Below are positions 12,740-61,500 of a stretch of DNA of 64,000 nt, in pieces. The stretch is from Sipunculus nudus (taxonomy: Eukaryota > Annelida > Sipuncula > Golfingiida > Sipunculidae), in NCBI GenBank assembly GCA_026874595.1, contig CM049316.1, forward strand, positions 14,325,839 through 14,389,838. The letters run 5' to 3'. The notes below the pieces were generated by a model. It was not told the DNA's origin, searched no databases, and saw only the letters and a program-made list of their open reading frames with translations. The position numbers were made by a program, and so were the translations under genes. How positions within the stretch are numbered: position 1 is the first letter of the stretch; each line of letters begins with the position of its first letter.

Positions 12740-12914
12740 TCATCTGAGGAGGGACTTGGCGGCCATGAGGAGCATGCGCATGTTGCGGGACTCTTGCGGG
12801 TGAGCCTGGATAAAAGCCATCAACTTTTGACACAGCGCGCCCAGCACAGCTGGCATGTGTTCCCTGGTCAGAGTGTTACTGGTGTCCAAGTTCATCACCG
12901 CTTCTTCCAAGAAC
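12740..12914 (-). CDS. EDC4: EDC4 last coding exon
   Basis: The acceptor is CATCTTCAG|GTTCTTGG and the stop is TGA at 12742-12740. The first base completes Lys from exon 17, followed by FLEEAVMNLDTSNTLTREHM, then PAVLGALCQKLMAFIQAHPQ and ESRNMRMLLMAAKSLLR. This matches the family ending (YLEEAVMxLD...TRxHM...LxxFLQ...). The length is normal for the family's C-terminus, so the gene ends intact here. Confidence 0.95.
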
Positions 12915-13537
12915 CTGAAGATGGATGCAAACTTGTTAATGTTTTGACTAACTGAATAAAATAAACACATGATATTTTCACAAGGTGGATTTTGATCAAT
13001 AAAGTAAGCTATCAACAATAAGCTCATAAATTGAGCAATAACCTTAAGTCCATCTACAAGACTTGCAATCATATAATTGTAGCATCATATTTCTTTCTAC
13101 TTACTCATATTCCTATACAATAGTTTCCCTGTCACCATATTCATTATGGCATTTTTGGATCAAAATAGTCCAAGCAGTAACTTTGGACTAAACTGTTACA
13201 TGTAACAAGGCCTTTGCAGCCTATGAAGGATGCAGACAGGTGAAGATAGTGCAATTAGTTTAAAATTTGGTTCTCTTTTATAATACCCATGAGATTAAGC
13301 AAAGTTAGCAAACTGTGTCTTACTGGAGATATACCTCAACTTGAGTTACAACCAAGATGCCAATTTGAACATGTGGTGTCCTAAGACTGCTTCACCTGAT
13401 AATACTTACTTGTGTTTCTGGTGTTGCTGACAATGCTAAATTGTTTTGAGGTCTGTTGCTGATGATAATTACTTGTGTTTGAAGTCTGTTGCTGATGATA
13501 CTTACTTGTGTTTGAGGCCTGTTGCTGACAATACTTA

Positions 13538-14915
13538 CCGTAAAATCTCCACTTAAAACCACGGTTTAATCAAGAAATTCAAAATCTTGAAATCAGGTTG
13601 ATTTCCTGAAAGCACTGTGCGGTTTATACTAGAAGGGTTTCCTGAATATCTTCCTGACAGACTTCATTTTGGGGCCAGTGAGTGGGCGATAATATTGCAA
13701 CTTCCGAAGGCCGTTCTTAGCAGCAGTCTCGCATGCATGGGAGCCGTGTGTAAAATTATTATTTACGATTATTTGTTATTTATAAATTAAATATTGCTGA
13801 TTAGTTTTCCTGTGATATATAACTTGTTATAAAATTTTGGTAATTGTCACCAAATAATACGTTTACAACAACCCTGCTGTAACACACAGCGGCCCACTTC
13901 GTTGGGCATGGTCAAGCAAAATGAAATAAAAGCCTACTTTAAACCCATTTGCGGCATTATTTAGCAATGATTATTTGTTTAAAACGTAAAATGAATAAAA
14001 AGTTGACATCATAAAGAGTCACACAATGGCAGACGATCGTTTTAAAATCAAGTTTGAGTGTCGCCAAGTGCTGCTAGGAATATTTTGAACGGCTGTACGC
14101 GGTGGGTGGTAAACAGAACAGCCACCTATTTCGTCCCAGCGTGCCTTGCGTGAACACTGCCTTGACAAAATGGCTCCCCACACGGAAACTTTCTTCAGGA
14201 AAAAAAAAACTTGCTTACCCCGACTGGCCACTTTAATTTTACCTTAAAATCACTCGTTATCAAGCGTCATGTTTCCTATACGTGCGTATCTCGACAAGGT
14301 AACTTCAATTACTTTGATATTTAGTTAAGTTGACCAGCGATGTTTTCAAACGCGCCAGCAAATTGTGACATGGAGCGATGTCAGCGTACGATGTGACGAT
14401 GATAATACCGAAGTAACCGGTATGAAAATGATTTGAATCTTCCGAGTAATTCCAGAAAATGGAATTTTCATAAAAATTTTTTTAGAATTAAAATATACAG
14501 TGACTTGAAGTGGATCAGCAGCATATTTTTTTTCAAAATATAATGACAAATCGGTAGCAAACAAGAATACGGCATGGAATATAAAATCTGTATAAACAGG
14601 CAGAGGTTCATCGGCCCATACGTCTTCCCAAACTTATGCTTGAGTGACCCTGCAAAAAAGTGTTATGATGTGTTTAAATCAAATACCCAAGGAAATTAAA
14701 AGTGGACAGGAATGGCCGAGTCGCAACCTACGCGTGTTCATTTCTAGATGATAGCTTAATTGTATCTTTTGTCAAATCATTCCGTAGCGAAAGTTGGTGC
14801 GGTTTAAAAGGGGGGTTCTTAGTATTTGAGCCCCTCGCGATGTCTCACCTGGAATTTCGGCGAAGTCTGGGTGCGGTTTTAATCGGAAGTGCAGTTTTAA
14901 GTGGAGATTTTACGA
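13538..14915. mobile_element. TA-flanked element A with CCGTAAAATCTCC ends
   Basis: The element starts CCGTAAAATCTCCACTTAAA and ends with the inverted copy (TTTAAGTGGAGATTTTACGA), flanked by TA at both ends. The flanks rejoin to a normal unit of the 33-bp array (caatacTTActtgtc), so the array is the empty site. It is 1378 bp with no intact transposase. TA duplication and the ends suggest a Tc1/mariner or pogo-type non-autonomous element. Copy B (15865-16863) is the same family in inverse orientation. Confidence 0.8.
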
Positions 14916-15864
14916 TACTTGTCTTTGAAGTCTGTTGCTGACAATGCTAAATTGTTTTGAGGTCTGTGCTGATGATATTTTCTTGTGTTTGAAGTCTGTT
15001 GCTGACGATACTTACTTGTGTTTGAGGCCTGTTGCTGACAATACTTACTTGTCTTTGAAGTCTGTTGCTGACAATGCTAAATTGTTTTGAGGTCTGTGCT
15101 GATGATATTTTCTTGTGTTTGAAGTCTGTTGCTGACGATATTTACTTGTGTATCAGGCCTGTTGTTGACAATACTTACTTGTGTTTGAGGTCTGTTGCTG
15201 ACAATACTTACTTGTGTTTGAGGTCTGTTGCTGATGATACTTACTTGTGTTTGAGGCCTGTTGCTGACAATACTTACTTGTGTTTGAGGTCTGTTGCTGA
15301 CGATACTAACTTGTGTTTGAGGTCTGTTGCTGACAATGCTAAATTGTTTTGAGGTCTGTGCTGATGATATTTTCTTGTGTTTGAAGTCTGTTGCTGACGA
15401 TACTTACTTGTGTTTAAGGTCTGTTGCTGACAATACTTACTTGTGTTTGAGGTCTGTTGCTGACAATACTTACTTGTCTTTGAAGTCTGTTGCTGACAAT
15501 GCTAAATTGTTTTGAGGTCTGTGCTGATGATATTTTCTTGTGTTTGAAGTCTGTTGCTGACGATACTTACTTGTGTTTGAGGCCTGTTGCTGACAATACT
15601 TTCTTGTGTTTGAGGTTTGTTGCTGACAATACTTACTTGTGTTTGAGGTCGGTTGCTGACAATGCAAAATTGTTTTGAGGTCTGTGCTGATGATATTTTC
15701 TTGTGTTTGAGGTTTGCTGCTGACGATACTTAATTGTGTTGGAGGACTGTTGCTGATGATACTTACTTGTGTTTGAGGTCTGTTGCTGATGATACTTACT
15801 TGTGTTTGAGGTCTGTTGTTGATGATAATTACTTGTGTTTGAGGCCTGTTGCTGATGATACTTA

Positions 15865-16863
15865 CCGTAAAATCTCCACTTAAAACTGCACTTCCGATTA
15901 AAACCGCACCCAGACTTCGCAGAAATTCCAGGTGAGACATCGCGAGGTGCTCAAATACTAAGAAACCCCCTTTAAAACCGCACCAACTTTCGCTACGGAA
16001 TGATTTGATAAAAGACACAATCAAGCTATCGCGTTGAAAACATCGCTGGTCAACTTAACTAAATATCAAAGTAATTGAAGTTACCTTGTCGAGATACGCA
16101 CGTATAGGAAACACGACGCTTGATAATGAGTGATTTTAAGGTAAAATTAAAGTGGCCAGTCGGGGTAAGCAAGTTTTTTTTTCCTGAAGAAAGTTTCCGT
16201 GTTGGGAGCCATTTTGTCAAGGCAGTGTTCACGCAAGGCACGCTGGGACGAAATAGGTGGCTGTTCTGTTTACCACCCACCGCGTACAGCCGTTCAAAAT
16301 ATTCTTAGCAGAATACTGGGGCGTTTCAGCATACGGCGGCACTCAAACTTGATTTTAAAACGATCGTCTGCCTTTGTGTGACTCCTTCTGATGTCAGCTT
16401 TTTATTCATTTTACGTTTTAAACAAATAATCATAGCTAAATAATGTCGCAAATGGGTTTAAAGTAGGCTTTTTTTTCAATTTTGCTTGACCATGCCCAAC
16501 GAAGTGGGCCGCTGTGTGTTACAGCAGGGTTGTTGTAAACGTATTATTTGGTGACAATTACCAAAATTTTATAACAAGTTATATATCACACGAAAACTAA
16601 TCAGCAATATTTAATTTATAAATAACAAATAATCGTAAATAATACATTTACACATGGCTCCCATGCATGCGAGAATGCTGCTAAGAACGGCCTTCGAAAG
16701 TTGCAATATTATCGCCCACTCACCGGCCCCAAAACGATGTCTGTCAGGAAGATATTCAGGAAACCCTTCTAGTATAAACCGCACAGTGCTTTCAGGAAAT
16801 CAACCTGATTTTAAGATTTTGAATTTCTTGATTAAACCGCGGTTTTAAGTGGAGATTTTACGG
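15865..16863. mobile_element. TA-flanked element B, inverted relative of element A
   Basis: Same terminal repeats as element A, perfect here (CCGTAAAATCTCC ... GGAGATTTTACGG), and TA on both sides. It is 999 bp. Relative to A it runs in the opposite direction and lacks about 400 bp near an ACGCG word, where A reads through extra sequence (about 14355-14735). It is inserted at the equivalent TA of another 33-bp unit. The 184-codon frame over its left end and the neighbouring array is not protein-like. Confidence 0.8.
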
Positions 16864-17161
16864 TACTTGTGTTTGAGGCCTGATGCTGACAATACTTACT
16901 TGTCTTTGAAGTCTGTTGCTGACGATACTTATTTGTGTTTGAGGTCTGTTGCTGACAATGCTAAATTGTTTTGAGGTCTGTGCTGATGATATTTTCTTGT
17001 GTTTGAGGTTTGTTGCTGACGATGCTTACTTGTGTTGGAGGTCTGCTGCAGACAATACTTATTTGTGTTTGAGGTCTGTTGCTGACAATACTTACTTGTG
17101 TTTGAGGTCTGTTGCTGATGATACTTACTTGTGTTGGAGGTCTGTTGCTGATGATACTTAC

Positions 17162-17325
17162 TTGTGTTTGAGGTCTGTTGCTGTGACCAGGTCTGCTGAC
17201 AGCTGTTGTATCAGGGACAGCAGGACAGGCTGCTGCAGTGGACAGGGCACCTGGTTGAAGACTTGGGCAGGATCCACATTCTCACAAACAAATATAACCA
17301 GTTCCAGGTTAGCTGCTGACAAGGC
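17162..17325 (-). CDS. EDC4: EDC4 exon 17 (C-terminal domain)
   Basis: Acceptor TTTTTTCAG|GCCTTG, donor CACAA|GTAAGT at 17161-17160. It encodes ALSAANLELVIFVCENVDPA, then QVFNQVPCPLQQPVLLSLIQ and QLSADLVTATDLKH. This is the most diagnostic piece of EDC4. The last 22 nt and the first 11 nt of the intron together form the first unit of a 33-bp minisatellite that fills much of the next intron, so at least nine more copies of exon end plus donor follow directly. Confidence 0.95.
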
Positions 17326-31758: not shown

Positions 31759-33224
31759 TTATAAAGGAGCTATTCCATGCATTTCAAAATCCTCGCCTGT
31801 TATTTCATCTTCAGAAAAATTACTAATATCACTGTCACTGTCATCATCTGTCACATTAATAATAAAATTATCAACTACGTCATCTATCAAACCATCAACC
31901 TTCCACATTTCCTCTTCAACTCTTTTCACATGGTCACAGGCCCTCCTCCAATCGTCCACTGTAACTGATTCCACTGCTTCAGCACACAGGTCAGCAACTG
32001 AAGACATCTTAAACGATGAATTGTTCCGAGCTGCATATCCCTGAACTTATGCCCATATTAGCTCAATTGGGTTCAGTTCACAGTGATTTGGGGGTAAACG
32101 TACAACAGTGTGACCACGTTCCTCTGCCCAAGTGTCAATTTTGTACTTCACAAAGGTTGGCTTGGCTTTCTTTACAAGTTCATACAGTTCTGGCTTCAGC
32201 ATGTCATGGGACCAGTGGATTTTGTGAGCTGTGAGCCAAGCGCGCATATCACCTCTCCTGGTTTTACTAGTGGGAGCTTTGTGTAATATCACACTGTGAT
32301 ATGGAGCATTGTCCATAACAATGACAGACTTGGGAGGAAGGTTTGGAACCAACTTTTCCATGAACCATGACTCAAATTGGGGAGCATCCATTTCCTCGTG
32401 GTAGTCAGCAGTTCCTTTCCTGGCTTGGAATGTCCACAAAGCATTAGGAACAAATCCCAATTCTCCCCCAGCATGGGAAATGATTAACCGTCCACCCTTG
32501 CCACTTGGCTGGTGTAATCCTGGTGACAAGTTGTCTTGCTGAGCCTTCCAAGGATTTTTGTGTACCTGTGTATCTTGCCACACACGACAAACAAAATGAT
32601 GGGCATTCAGCCAAGTCTCATCAAGGTAGACAATAGTACCTACAGATGGGTGTTCACGCAACATTCTTATCTGCCTCAGATACCTGTGTCTTCGTGCAAG
32701 GATATCTGGCTTCTCATACACAAAAATCCGCCCATTTCTTTTCTGGTATTTAAAGCCAAGTTTGTGAAGTATTTTCCATAAAGTTGTCCGCCCATATGGG
32801 AATCCACAGTCTGCTTGTTGGATGGAATTAAGCAGTTTATTTTCAAGGTTGGAACCTCATTACAATGGAAGAACTGATGCACATTCCTTCTGATCACACT
32901 AAGCATAAAATAATCAACCTGTGAAAATTGGGCTTCCCTGTTGGGTCTTTTTTTACCAGGGGTGCATAACTGATCCTTTTCTGTTCCTTCCACCCTTACT
33001 CGTGACACTGTGCGTTCACCAACACCTGTAGCTTCTGCAGTTCATTCCCTAACTTTCTTCACAGAGATTGCAGGGTGGCCGAGCTGCTTTTCTCTTTCAA
33101 AATACTGATTTACATTCAGTATAATGCCTCTTGCCTGGCTGGTTAAACACTTTCCTTGAAACTTTTTCAAAGAGCTTTTTCTGTCTTCTGGTTTCTTTGT
33201 TTTACTTGTTGGTGTTGCCGACAT
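31759..33224 (-). pseudogene. dead Tc1/mariner-group transposase, DD82E spacing
   Basis: Four reading-frame pieces line up as one IS630-Tc1-mariner transposase. The N-terminus (ATG at 33224) has a helix-turn-helix (AISVKKVRE, stop, TAEATGVGERTVSRV). The catalytic part has VYLDETW (Asp near 32622), VIVMDNAPYHS (Asp near 32316) and LPPNHCELNPIELIW (Glu near 32064). Exactly 82 residues separate the second Asp from the Glu, the spacing I recall for the Sailor (DD82E) family. An acidic tail (DDDSDSD...) ends at 31759. Three lesions kill it: TGA at 33044-33042, a one-base loss near 32840-32855, and TAA at 32049-32047 right after the catalytic block. The terminal repeats were not found. It sits in the EDC4 intron between exons 10 and 11, same strand. 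Confidence 0.85.
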
Positions 33225-44702: not shown

Positions 44703-44870
44703 TTGGAATGTAGCCCCTGGTCTGCCAGCAGGAGTGGAGGCTGCTCTGCCAGCAGGAGTGGAGGCTGCTCTGCCAGCAGGAGCGGAGGCTGCTCAAGCTC
44801 TTCCTCCTGGCTCTGGTCTTCTGCCTGGATGCTGCCAGATCCATCAACAGTCTCAGCCTCTTGTTCTTTC
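44703..44870 (-). CDS. EDC4: EDC4 exon 6, with in-frame 24-bp repeat
   Basis: Acceptor TGTACAG|GAAAGA, donor TCCAA|GTAAGT, 55 whole codons. It begins KEQEAETVDGSGSIQAEDQS, then has an acidic run and three copies of the octapeptide EQPPLLLA, the last ending in D. The 24-bp repeat lies at 44721-44792 and keeps frame, so copy number could vary without breaking the protein. Confidence 0.88.
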
Positions 44871-52630: not shown

Positions 52631-55237
52631 ACTAGACATTTCTTGGCACCGCAGGTGCCAGAGTATCCCCAGACATAGTAGGCCCCCCCCTTTAAGAACA
52701 GACCATTTTTAGCAGCATATACTGACACTTTGCATATTTATTGTTTCTTCCATCTAACAATCCACAATCTTGTTGAAGATGTTGGTCCTGTGACCTTGAT
52801 CTTTTTACAGATGTGTCCTGTGACCTTGACCTTTGACCTCATGACCCCAAAATCAATTTGGGTCTTGCTTTTCCAATGGGACATATGCAAGTCAAGTTTG
52901 AAATCTATACATCAATAAAGCAGGAATGATCATCCAGAAACTAATTTTTTTTACAGGTGGCTCCTGTGACCTTCACCTTTGACCTTGTGACCTTAAATTG
53001 ATAGTTTTCTTCCTCTCTTGGCAGGAGAACTATATGTGCAAGATGGAAGATCTGAGATGAAATGTTTGGCTGAAAATGCATCCACATCTTTTTAAAGATG
53101 TGTCCTGTGATCTTGACCTTTGACCTCATGACCCCAAATCAATTCGAGTCTTGCTTTTCCAATGGGACATATACAAGTCAAGTTTGAAAACCATACATCA
53201 ATTAAAGCAGGAATTATCATCCAGAAACTAATTTTTGGACAGATGGCTCCTGTGACCTTCACCTTTGACCTTGTGACCTCAAAATTGATAGGGTTATTCC
53301 TCTCTTGGCAGGTGAACTATATGTGCAAGATGAAAGATCTGAGATGAAATTTTTGGCTGAAAATGCATCCACATCTTTTTAAAGATGTGTCCTGTGACCT
53401 TGACCTTTGACCTCATTACCCCAAAATCAATTCAGGTCTTGCTTTTCCAATGGGACATATACAAGTCAAGTTTGAAATCCATACATCAATAAAAGCAGGA
53501 ATTATCATCCAGAAACTATTTTTTGGACAGATGGCTTCTGTGACCTTCACCTTTGACCTTGTGACCTCAAAATTGATAGGGTTCTTCCACTCTTAGCAGG
53601 TGAACTATATGTGCAAGATGAAAGATCTGGGATGAAAGTTTGGCTGAAAATGCATCCACAACCTTTTAAAAGATGGTTCAGGTGACCTTGACCTTTGACC
53701 TCATGACCCCAAAATCAATTGGAGTTTTGCTTTTTCAATGGGACATATATAAGTCAAATTTGAAAACCATACATCAATAAAAGCAGGAATTATCATCCAG
53801 AAACTAATTTTTGGACAGATAGCTCCTGTGGCCTTGACCTTTGACCTTGTGACCCCAAAATTTATATGGATTATCCACTATTGGCAAGTGAGCAATGTAT
53901 TCAAGATGGAAGACCTGGGATGAAAGTTTGGCTTAAAATGCATCCACATATTTTTAAAGATGTGTCCTGTGACCTTGACCTTTGACCCCATGACCCCAAA
54001 ATCAATTTAGGTCTTGCTTTTCCAATGGGACATATACAAGTCAAGTTTGAAATCCATACATCAATAAAAGCAGGAATTATCATCCAGAAACTAATTTTTG
54101 GACAGATGGCTCCTGTGACCTTCACCTTTGACCTTGTGACCTCAAAACTGATAGGGGTCTTCCTCTCTTGGCAGATGACTTATATGTGCAAGATGAAAGG
54201 TCTGAGATGAAATGTTTGGTTGAAAATGCATCCACAATCTTTTTAAAGATGTGTCAGGTGACCTTGACCTTTGACCTCATGACCCCAAAATCAATTGGAG
54301 TTTTGCTTTTTCAATGGGACATATATAAGTCAAATTTGAAAACCATACATCAATAAAAGCAGGAATTATCATCCAGAAACTAATTTTTGGACAGATAGCT
54401 CCTGTGGCCTTGACCTTTGACCTTGTGACCCCAAAATTTATATGGATCATCCACTATGGGCAAGTGAGCTATATATTCAAGATGGAAGACCTGGGATGAA
54501 AGTTTGGCTTAAAATGCATGCACAGTATCTTTTAAAATGCCAGTCCAGTGACCTTGACCTTTGACCTCATGACCCTAGAACCTATAGGGTTCTTACTTTA
54601 GTGGTGGGCCATACATAAGTCATTTTTGAAATCCATATGGCTATCAACACTGGAGATATCATAAGAGGTGTGTGATTTTCACCATATATGGAAATATTCA
54701 AGGTCAAGGCCACTATCATAGGAAAGGTCATGACCCCAATTTAAATAAACATCATCCCATAACCCATACCTATGTATATGCAAAATATAAAAGAAATCTG
54801 TCCATTAGTTTTTGACTTATAATGCTCACAGTACTGTAAGGTGCAATTTTTGGGGTATTAAACGGCATGAAAACAAGTAAAGAATAATAGGTGGCGCCAC
54901 CAGTTTCTGGAACATGACAACCCTATCCATGATCTTCCATCAACTTGATTTTTGGGATAAATCCATGCAAGATTTCTTGAGATATTAAAGAATTTGTGTG
55001 ATTTTCCCAAAAATTGGACCTATTCAAGGTCAAGGACACTCCTAGTAAAGGTCATGACCTCATTTTAAATAGGCGTCGTCCTCTTACCCATATCTATACA
55101 TATACCAAGTTTGGTAAATTTCCGTTAAATATTTTTTGGGTTATCGCGCCAACAAGATTTATATGCGGCGGCGGCGGCGGCAGCGGCGGCGGGACCGGTA
55201 TGAAAACATAGTATCCCCCGACTTTGTCTGGGGATAC
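52631..55237. mobile_element. Helitron-like repeat, family B, copy 2 (long core)
   Basis: Same head (ACTAGACATTTC, hairpin TGGCACCGCAGGTGCCA, GTATCCCCAGACA) and same tail stem-loop (55211-55237) as copy 1. The core differs: 52780-54640 is a tandem array with a period near 290 bp, each unit carrying TGACCTTTGACCT words, followed by one module with GGTGGCGCCACC (54890-54901). A GGCGGCGGCGG run sits just before the tail. No coding content. Confidence 0.75.
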
Positions 55238-60144: not shown

Positions 60145-61500
60145 ACTAGATGTGTCGGAACGACACGAATGCCCCCGCCTTGGGCAAATTAGAAACATTT
60201 GTAAAATTTTGAAAATTTTTTTAAGTTCAGGAGGTGTCGTATGGTCAAAAGTAGGTCAACAAGGGCAAAATGCAAACTCAATCTGTAACAGGTCATTATC
60301 AAGCAACACACCAAAAATCATGCCAGTATATGCAGGCATTGTGAAAAAAAGTCCATACATGTGCATTTTCCATAAAAATTTCTGTCTTTCATGAAATTTT
60401 CTATGTTTAGGAGCCGTAAAACAATCAAAAGTAGGTCAACCGGGATGAAACGCGAACTCGATCTGTAACTGTCATTATCTGCCCACACATAAAAAATCAG
60501 GGTGGTATCTGCAGACATTGAGGAAAAAAAGTCAGTACATATGCATTTGTTATGAAAATTTATATTTTTCATGAAACTTTCTATGTTCAGGAGCAGTCAA
60601 ATGGTCAAAAGTAGGTCAACTGAGAGAAAACAAGAACTCGATCTGTAACTGGTCATTATCTGCCTACACACCAAATATCAGGCCCGTATCTGCAGGCACT
60701 GCGAAAAAAAGTCCATACATATGCACCTTTTTATGAAATTTTCTATGTTAGAGCACCGTCAAACGGTCAAAAATAGGTCAACTGGGACAAAACGTGAACT
60801 TGATTTGTAACTGGTCATTATCTGCATACACACCAAAAATCAGGCTGATATCTGCAGGTATTGTGAAGAAAAGTCTGTACAAGTGTATTTGTCATGAAAA
60901 TTTATGTTTTACATGAAATTTTCTATGTTCAGGAGCTGTAAAACAGTCAAAAGTAGGTCAACCAGGACGAAATGCAAATTCAATCTGTAACTGGTCTATA
61001 TCTGTCCACACACCAAAAATCAGGCCAATATCTGCAGGCACTGCGAAAAAAAGTCCGTACATGTGTATTTGTCATGAAATTTCATATTTTTCATGAAATT
61101 TTCTATGTTCAGGAGCCGTAAAACAGTCAAAAGTAGGTCAACCAGGACTAAACGCGAACTCGATCTGTAACTGGTCATTATCTGCTCACACACCAAAAAT
61201 CAGGCCAATATCTGCAGGCATTGCGAAAAAAAGTCCGTACATGTGTATCTGTCATGAATATTTCTATTTTTCATGACATTTTCTAAGTTTAGGAGCCGTA
61301 AAACGATCAAAAGTAGGTCAACCGGGACGAAACGCGAACTCGATCTGTAACTGGTCTATATCTGCCCACACACCGAAAATTAGGCCAATATCTGCAGGCA
61401 TTGCGAAAAAAAGTCTGTACAACTGTTTGATTTCGGAATGACGGAATGACGGACATGGGTAAAACTATATGCCCCGGCCACTTTGTGCCCCCGCATAAAA
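60145..61500. repeat. Helitron-like repeat, family C, 180-bp tandem core
   Basis: The head ACTAGATGTGTCGG has a perfect small hairpin (GTGTCGGAACGACAC) followed by AATGCCCCCGCC. About seven tandem units of roughly 180 bp follow (GGAGCCGTAAAACAGTCAAA ... GCAGGCATTGCGAAAAAAAG). The right end has ATGCCCCGGCC and TGCCCCCGCAT after a GACGGAATGACGGA tract. The same unit forms the array at 867-1592. Bivalve pearl/HINE repeats have this kind of layout; that link is from memory. Confidence 0.72.

Follow-up and report, generated by a model that had tools for sequence, protein, structure and literature searches.

The 64-kb window of the Sipunculus nudus genome analyzed here (the whole stretch of 64,000 nucleotides) carries on its minus strand the gene for EDC4/Ge-1, an RNA-decay protein. 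The peptide of its last two coding exons matched Pfam EDC4_C (6.8e-43) and fly Ge-1 (PDB 2VXG, 5.1e-19). A search of the 1.43-Gb genome with this peptide gave two matches, which are the two exons of this locus. The intron between them holds a tandem array.

17162..17325, minus strand: penultimate EDC4 exon, 164 nt, ending in ..ACAGACCTCAAACACAA before the donor GTAAGT
12915..17161, minus strand: array-holding EDC4 intron, 4247 nt
12740..12914, minus strand: last coding EDC4 exon, entered after cag with G TTC TTG GAA.. and running up to the stop

Modelled splicing from 17162 to 12914 joins the exons in frame and yields ..LSADLVTATDLKHK followed directly by FLEEAVMNLD... A preliminary description of this DNA had taken the first unit of the array for the genuine exon border, and both the in-frame join and the EDC4_C match bear this out.

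The array consists of 43 units of 33 bp in three blocks (TRF and unit delimitation), which sum to 1412 bp and are separated by two copies of a transposon.

17149..17181, minus strand: unit 0, straddling the exon border; authentic donor GT at 17161-17160; in-frame read-through gives AAG TAA
16864..17183, minus strand: array block A (TRF), units 0-9, unit 9 cut by transposon copy 2
15865..16863, minus strand: transposon copy 2, 999 bp, terminal inverted repeats (TIRs) of ~25 bp, TA target duplication, orientation opposite to copy 1
14916..15865, minus strand: array block B (TRF), units 10-38, higher-order periods of 130 and 163 bp, unit 38 cut by transposon copy 1
13538..14915, plus strand: transposon copy 1, 1378 bp, TIRs of ~22 bp, TA target duplication
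13396..13538, minus strand: array block C (TRF), units 39-42, the final unit degenerate

Each unit comprises 22 nt of exon and 11 nt of intron. The exonic part matches the exon's final 22 nt at 22/22 positions. The intron opens with the 11 nt GTAAGTATCAT, which are one base off the array consensus. The description of about 40 copies of an exon end was thus correct as to the repeat itself but not as to its being one array. It had also credited every unit with a donor. GTAAGT is intact in only 19 of the 43 units (the true donor counted), 7 have another GT, and 17 have none. Extra donors are present, but a row of some 40 strong ones was an overstatement, as 18 are intact among the 42 extra units. 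Within the window, GTAAGTAT has 21 minus-strand occurrences, 19 of which lie inside the array, and 3 plus-strand ones. Units that lack a donor recur blockwise together with their neighbors (unit string; TRF periods of 130 and 163), which is the mark of higher-order tandem growth. This pattern, in one assembly, is compatible with length or somatic instability.

It is highly improbable that the array is an artefact of assembling a tandem region. Such regions do assemble poorly and the copy number may be off, but the units differ, with 24 haplotypes among 40 compared (units 9 and 38, which are cut by transposons, and the degenerate last unit are left out of the column counts). Moreover, the interior is anchored by the two transposons with their target duplications, and other loci carry similar arrays.

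The two insertions belong to one DNA transposon, their copies agreeing at 943 of 980 aligned bases, and together they make up 2.38 kb of the span. No transposase frame was seen in them among the listed open frames. By both flanks, the insertion point is the TA of a unit's GTAAGT. Array units flank the transposons on both sides in unchanged orientation, which indicates that the array was already long when they arrived. The transposons are younger than the growth of the array.

Other repeats and mobile sequences were seen in the window. A DDE_3 transposase frame at 32047-32856 (minus strand; Pfam 2.4e-9) belongs to a mobile element different from the array transposon. Arrays of seemingly one ~180-bp unit lie near both window ends (872-1591 and 60244-61421), and a 288-bp array lies at 52799-54575. 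At 44717-44794, a 24-bp repeat (96% matches) that reads as an EQPPLLLA peptide repeat on the minus strand stands directly before a donor-like AAGTAAGT at 44704; it may be a coding repeat at the end of another exon.

The exon is the source of the array, as had been proposed from the sequence. In addition to the 22/22 exonic identity, the exonic part of the unit codes TDLKHK, and a motif search found this stretch in 46 of 59 EDC4 homologues. A 101-base, mostly-array query from the far end of the array gave at least 17 genome matches, all at the EDC4 locus; a second locus of the repeat was not found among them. The converse order, in which the array came first and an exon border was captured from it, has in its favor that a single site separates unit 0 from the array consensus. 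We consider it scarcely credible, given that TDLKHK-like codons and the exon border are common to EDC4 of other animals and that the repeat was not found elsewhere among those genome matches.

Among the 46 homologues with the stretch, 23 stop exactly at the border residue, 5 continue into LEEA, and 18 diverge afterwards. Ending at the border residue is expected of unspliced gene calls if the same intron follows, so these 23 imply the same intron. We read this as an intron at the TDLKHK border in other animals too, with a donor that would often read G-stop. If so, the stop after TDLKHK was not created by the array.

The open frame of the EDC4 exon runs past the first donor to end at 17158. When five later donors were tried, the protein ended in ..TDLKHK and lacked the latter half of EDC4_C; the conserved C-terminal domain is in frame from donor 1 only. 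Since later donors run straight into TAA, full-length EDC4 can come from the first donor only. The computed U1 pairing energy is equal for all intact donors, including the true one (-7.5 kcal/mol), so strength by itself gives the first donor no advantage. We infer that splicing uses the donor at the exon. These same properties could also serve regulation: later donors might yield EDC4 mRNA with a stop after TDLKHK, either truncated or targeted by NMD, and so tune output. The 18 extra intact GTAAGT would be available for this, units 1 and 2 sit only 33 and 66 nt from the true donor, and TAA comes immediately after read-through from a later donor.

The genome was searched for further arrays with a pattern of three donor octamers in a row with gaps of 10-40. 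For AAGTAAGT, there were at least 13 arrays among the matches listed, and 11 were examined, omitting a microsatellite on contig C1 and C3:52616319. For AGGTAAGT, there were at least 22 among the matches listed on contigs C1-C4, and 22 were examined. The arrays examined were the first listed places on the first contigs, with no selection. Of these 33 arrays, 17 adjoin an exon-like end and 14 copy that end; where there is no homology, an end was called "exon-like" if an open frame followed an acceptor-like AG, a judgement made with knowledge of the hypothesis.

Three AAGTAAGT arrays copy the exon-like end (L049, 20/21 exonic nt; L040, 20/20; L042, 26/26), two start at the donor (L045 and L041), and L044 starts ~30 nt past an exon-like stretch. 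No exon-like end was seen at L039, L043, L046, or L048. The unit of L047, CNPCPAQPMCKPSK, looks by eye like a Cys-rich open frame that continues through more than three units. L047 was therefore rejected as a clean case, and whether it is a coding repeat or an exon-border array is ambiguous. Among the AGGTAAGT arrays, 21 of 22 were resolved, L093 being the other. Eleven copy the exon-like end: L052 (30/30), L054 (20/21), L056 (21/21), L057 (29/29), L065 (30/30), and L073 (23/23), together with L064 (29/30), L085 (22/26), L087 (30/30), L091 (14/15), and L092 (13/15), these last five compared with the next copy. L088 is of an intermediate class (20/25), and at L050, L055, L078, L079, L083, L084, L086, L089, and L090 no exon-like end was seen.

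Homology supports five of the 17 exon-adjoining arrays. The exons belong to annexin (L049, 3.4e-15), XPD (L045, 8.4e-16, where the match to human XPD chains stops at residue 730), PKA RI (L065, 2.6e-24), ABCC (L057; PDB 9e-9, and Pfam 3.4e-5, which is below the cut-off), and Lips (L040; two successive profile pieces at 3e-6 and 2.9e-4, neither of which reaches the curated cut-off). Matches were weak for L056 (PH, 0.016) and L044 (MAP4K3, 0.018). No clear Pfam family was found for L041, L042, L052, L054, L064, L073, L085, or L087, and a PDB search with L042 gave no clear match.

Two further observations concern individual arrays. The exon ends at L091 (C3:73793300) and L092 (C3:73830880), ..GSISDQDFDDYL, closely resemble each other, lie 37 kb apart, and are each followed by a 22-bp donor array, perhaps one common to paralogues. 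At C1:1041372-1046191 there is a long AGGTAAGT array whose 58-bp period is beyond the gap range of the pattern. No exon-like stretch was seen in the ~570 bases before its first listed donor, and its units begin earlier.

A control octamer one base from AGGTAAGT, AGCTAAGT, gave 67 matches genome-wide, grouped in 13 arrays. On contigs C1-C3, there were 20 AGGTAAGT arrays versus 3 AGCTAAGT arrays, while the octamers themselves differ twofold in abundance (45,924 versus 22,947); given these frequencies, the excess of AGGTAAGT arrays has P = 0.027. In 2 of the 13 control arrays, inspected by eye, no exon-like stretch was seen. Reversed octamers argue against enrichment, with more matches than the forward pattern for AAGTAAGT (2938 versus 1127) and only somewhat fewer for AGGTAAGT (538 versus 687). 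Furthermore, should the twofold excess of the octamer reflect genuine donors, then even without any preference one would expect about half of the arrays at donors, which is near the 12 of 21 resolved. A preference of minisatellites for donors is therefore suggested, and we make no strong claim of a hotspot. A broader reading is that minisatellites in this lineage arise preferentially at exon-intron borders and that donor-bearing tandem arrays form a genome-wide class, which repeatedly expands a single 5' splice site into a donor ladder. We hold this to be possible but somewhat doubtful. If it were true, EDC4 would be one long, transposon-broken example. By extrapolation, if C1-C3 are typical, the two donor octamers sampled would account for some 80 arrays at exon-like borders.

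The preliminary description knew of no case of this form, but related ones exist. Tandem repeats that span exon-intron boundaries have been described in amphioxus as "mirages" (PMC3087553; PMC3902484), in Adh3, the globins BflGb6 and BflGb9, TnC, and PGBD5, the last two from PMC3902484. The EDC4 array resembles them as these papers describe them: it is minisatellite-like, its unit spans the boundary, many but not all copies keep the splice signal, and units evolve in concert within a cluster. The amphioxus Adh3 units are given as 10-72 bp, a range that takes in the 33 bp of EDC4. As mirages occur in several genes of one genome, so the exon-adjoining arrays above recur across the genome of S. 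nudus. The differences lie in the host, mirages being reported in cephalochordates only in the accounts cited; in copy number, 43 versus 3 and 6 in the reported BflGb6 haplotypes; and in the two transposons, which, unlike the mirages described, break the EDC4 array. Length and somatic instability are reported for the Adh3 mirage, whereas EDC4 is known from one assembly. Among the open-licence papers listed in a literature search, no boundary-spanning array was recognized in another animal group. The mirage form is thus already known, EDC4 is a further example, and the recurrence is the interesting part.

Other systems bear on the comparison. Turri, Cuin and Porter (1995) described a minisatellite that supplies multiple splice donors to an interferon-induced human transcript, and a citing phrase speaks of it as "interfering with gene splicing." Like EDC4, it is described as having several donors within one minisatellite, and this lends the idea of regulatory donors at EDC4 a precedent. 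The human transcript is reportedly 6-16/IFI6, with 12-nt units and donors used in frame, whereas the EDC4 unit is 33 nt and its later donors run into TAA. Intron gain via tandem genomic duplication of AG/GT proto-splice sites (PMC3087553; PMC4974935) likewise copies a splice signal by duplication, but as described it makes a new intron inside an exon, while at EDC4 an old intron merely grows; relatives do not lack this intron, as the homologues that stop at the border residue imply. Minisatellite-like repeats in a gene, along with exon duplications, are reported for earthworm metallothionein (PMC12783039), and tandem repeats altering human gene structure are treated in PMC2812944.

If donors were retained as U1 sites, GTAAGT would diverge less than the unit's other hexamers; if they were purged as decoys, it would diverge more. 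In a held-out test on nine exon-border arrays, those with enough sequence (L054, with three copies, and L064 were left out), GTAAGT diverged like other unit hexamers (mean fractional rank 0.41, P = 0.20; each unit was scored at the better of its two placements). L042 and L052 were on the strongly diverged side and L057 was on the conserved side. In the EDC4 array, distinct changes per column tended to fall in the donor hexamer (8 of 18 possible versus 19 of 81; odds ratio 2.6, P = 0.084). A first cross-array count had given 0.148 mismatches per site in the donor versus 0.079 elsewhere, the donor being higher in 8 of 9 arrays, but its seed had spared the donor and it was set aside for the held-out test. 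There the excess was gone on average, with L042 and L052 still among the most diverged. Productive use of later donors should favor unit lengths that are multiples of three. These were found in 4 of 11 exon-border arrays, matching chance, and in 5 of 16 when five later-measured arrays (42, 44, 40, 22, and 22 nt) were added.

Together, these results argue against the tuning of EDC4 output by later donors. The hexamer is retained no better than the rest of the unit, GTAAGT is lost in 24 of 43 units, and unit lengths modulo three are unbiased. Published mirages, moreover, are reported to leave splicing undisturbed, with no aberrant mRNA (PMC3087553; PMC3902484). We therefore regard such regulation as unlikely. 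The absence of preferential retention bears equally on a second possible role, in which donor-like sites would recruit U1 snRNP and keep transcripts from being cleaved and polyadenylated prematurely within the long terminal intron. Telescripting is a known activity of U1, and the array does offer nineteen strong U1 sites in a 4.2-kb intron. With only one AATAAA and four ATTAAA, the intron nevertheless has few polyadenylation hexamers to suppress, and we judge this role to be very improbable.

Since the array behaves as neutral sequence, we take it to be a mirage that is spliced out whole. Very probably, it is a neutral minisatellite seeded at the exon border, grown, split by transposons, and removed with the intron. 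Its history would have begun with a tandem duplication of a segment bridging the end of the penultimate EDC4 exon and its 5' splice site. Slippage or unequal exchange, to which the higher-order blocks point, would then have enlarged and partly homogenized the array, and the two transposon insertions split it afterwards. In the present gene, the first donor is probably used, and everything downstream of it would leave as intron. The extra donors would be silent or would yield low-level truncated RNA that is degraded, and the array would have no selected function. The same process appears to have operated at other exon borders of the S. nudus genome.

Mirage arrays may be a source of variable intron length and cryptic isoforms, and they have been proposed as a source of new introns for the amphioxus globins (PMC3087553). 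If mirages are common outside the cephalochordates, splice-site choice could be studied in natural genes with up to tens of near-identical donors ~20-50 nt apart. In such genes, the rule that the exon-adjacent donor wins could be tested directly in vivo.
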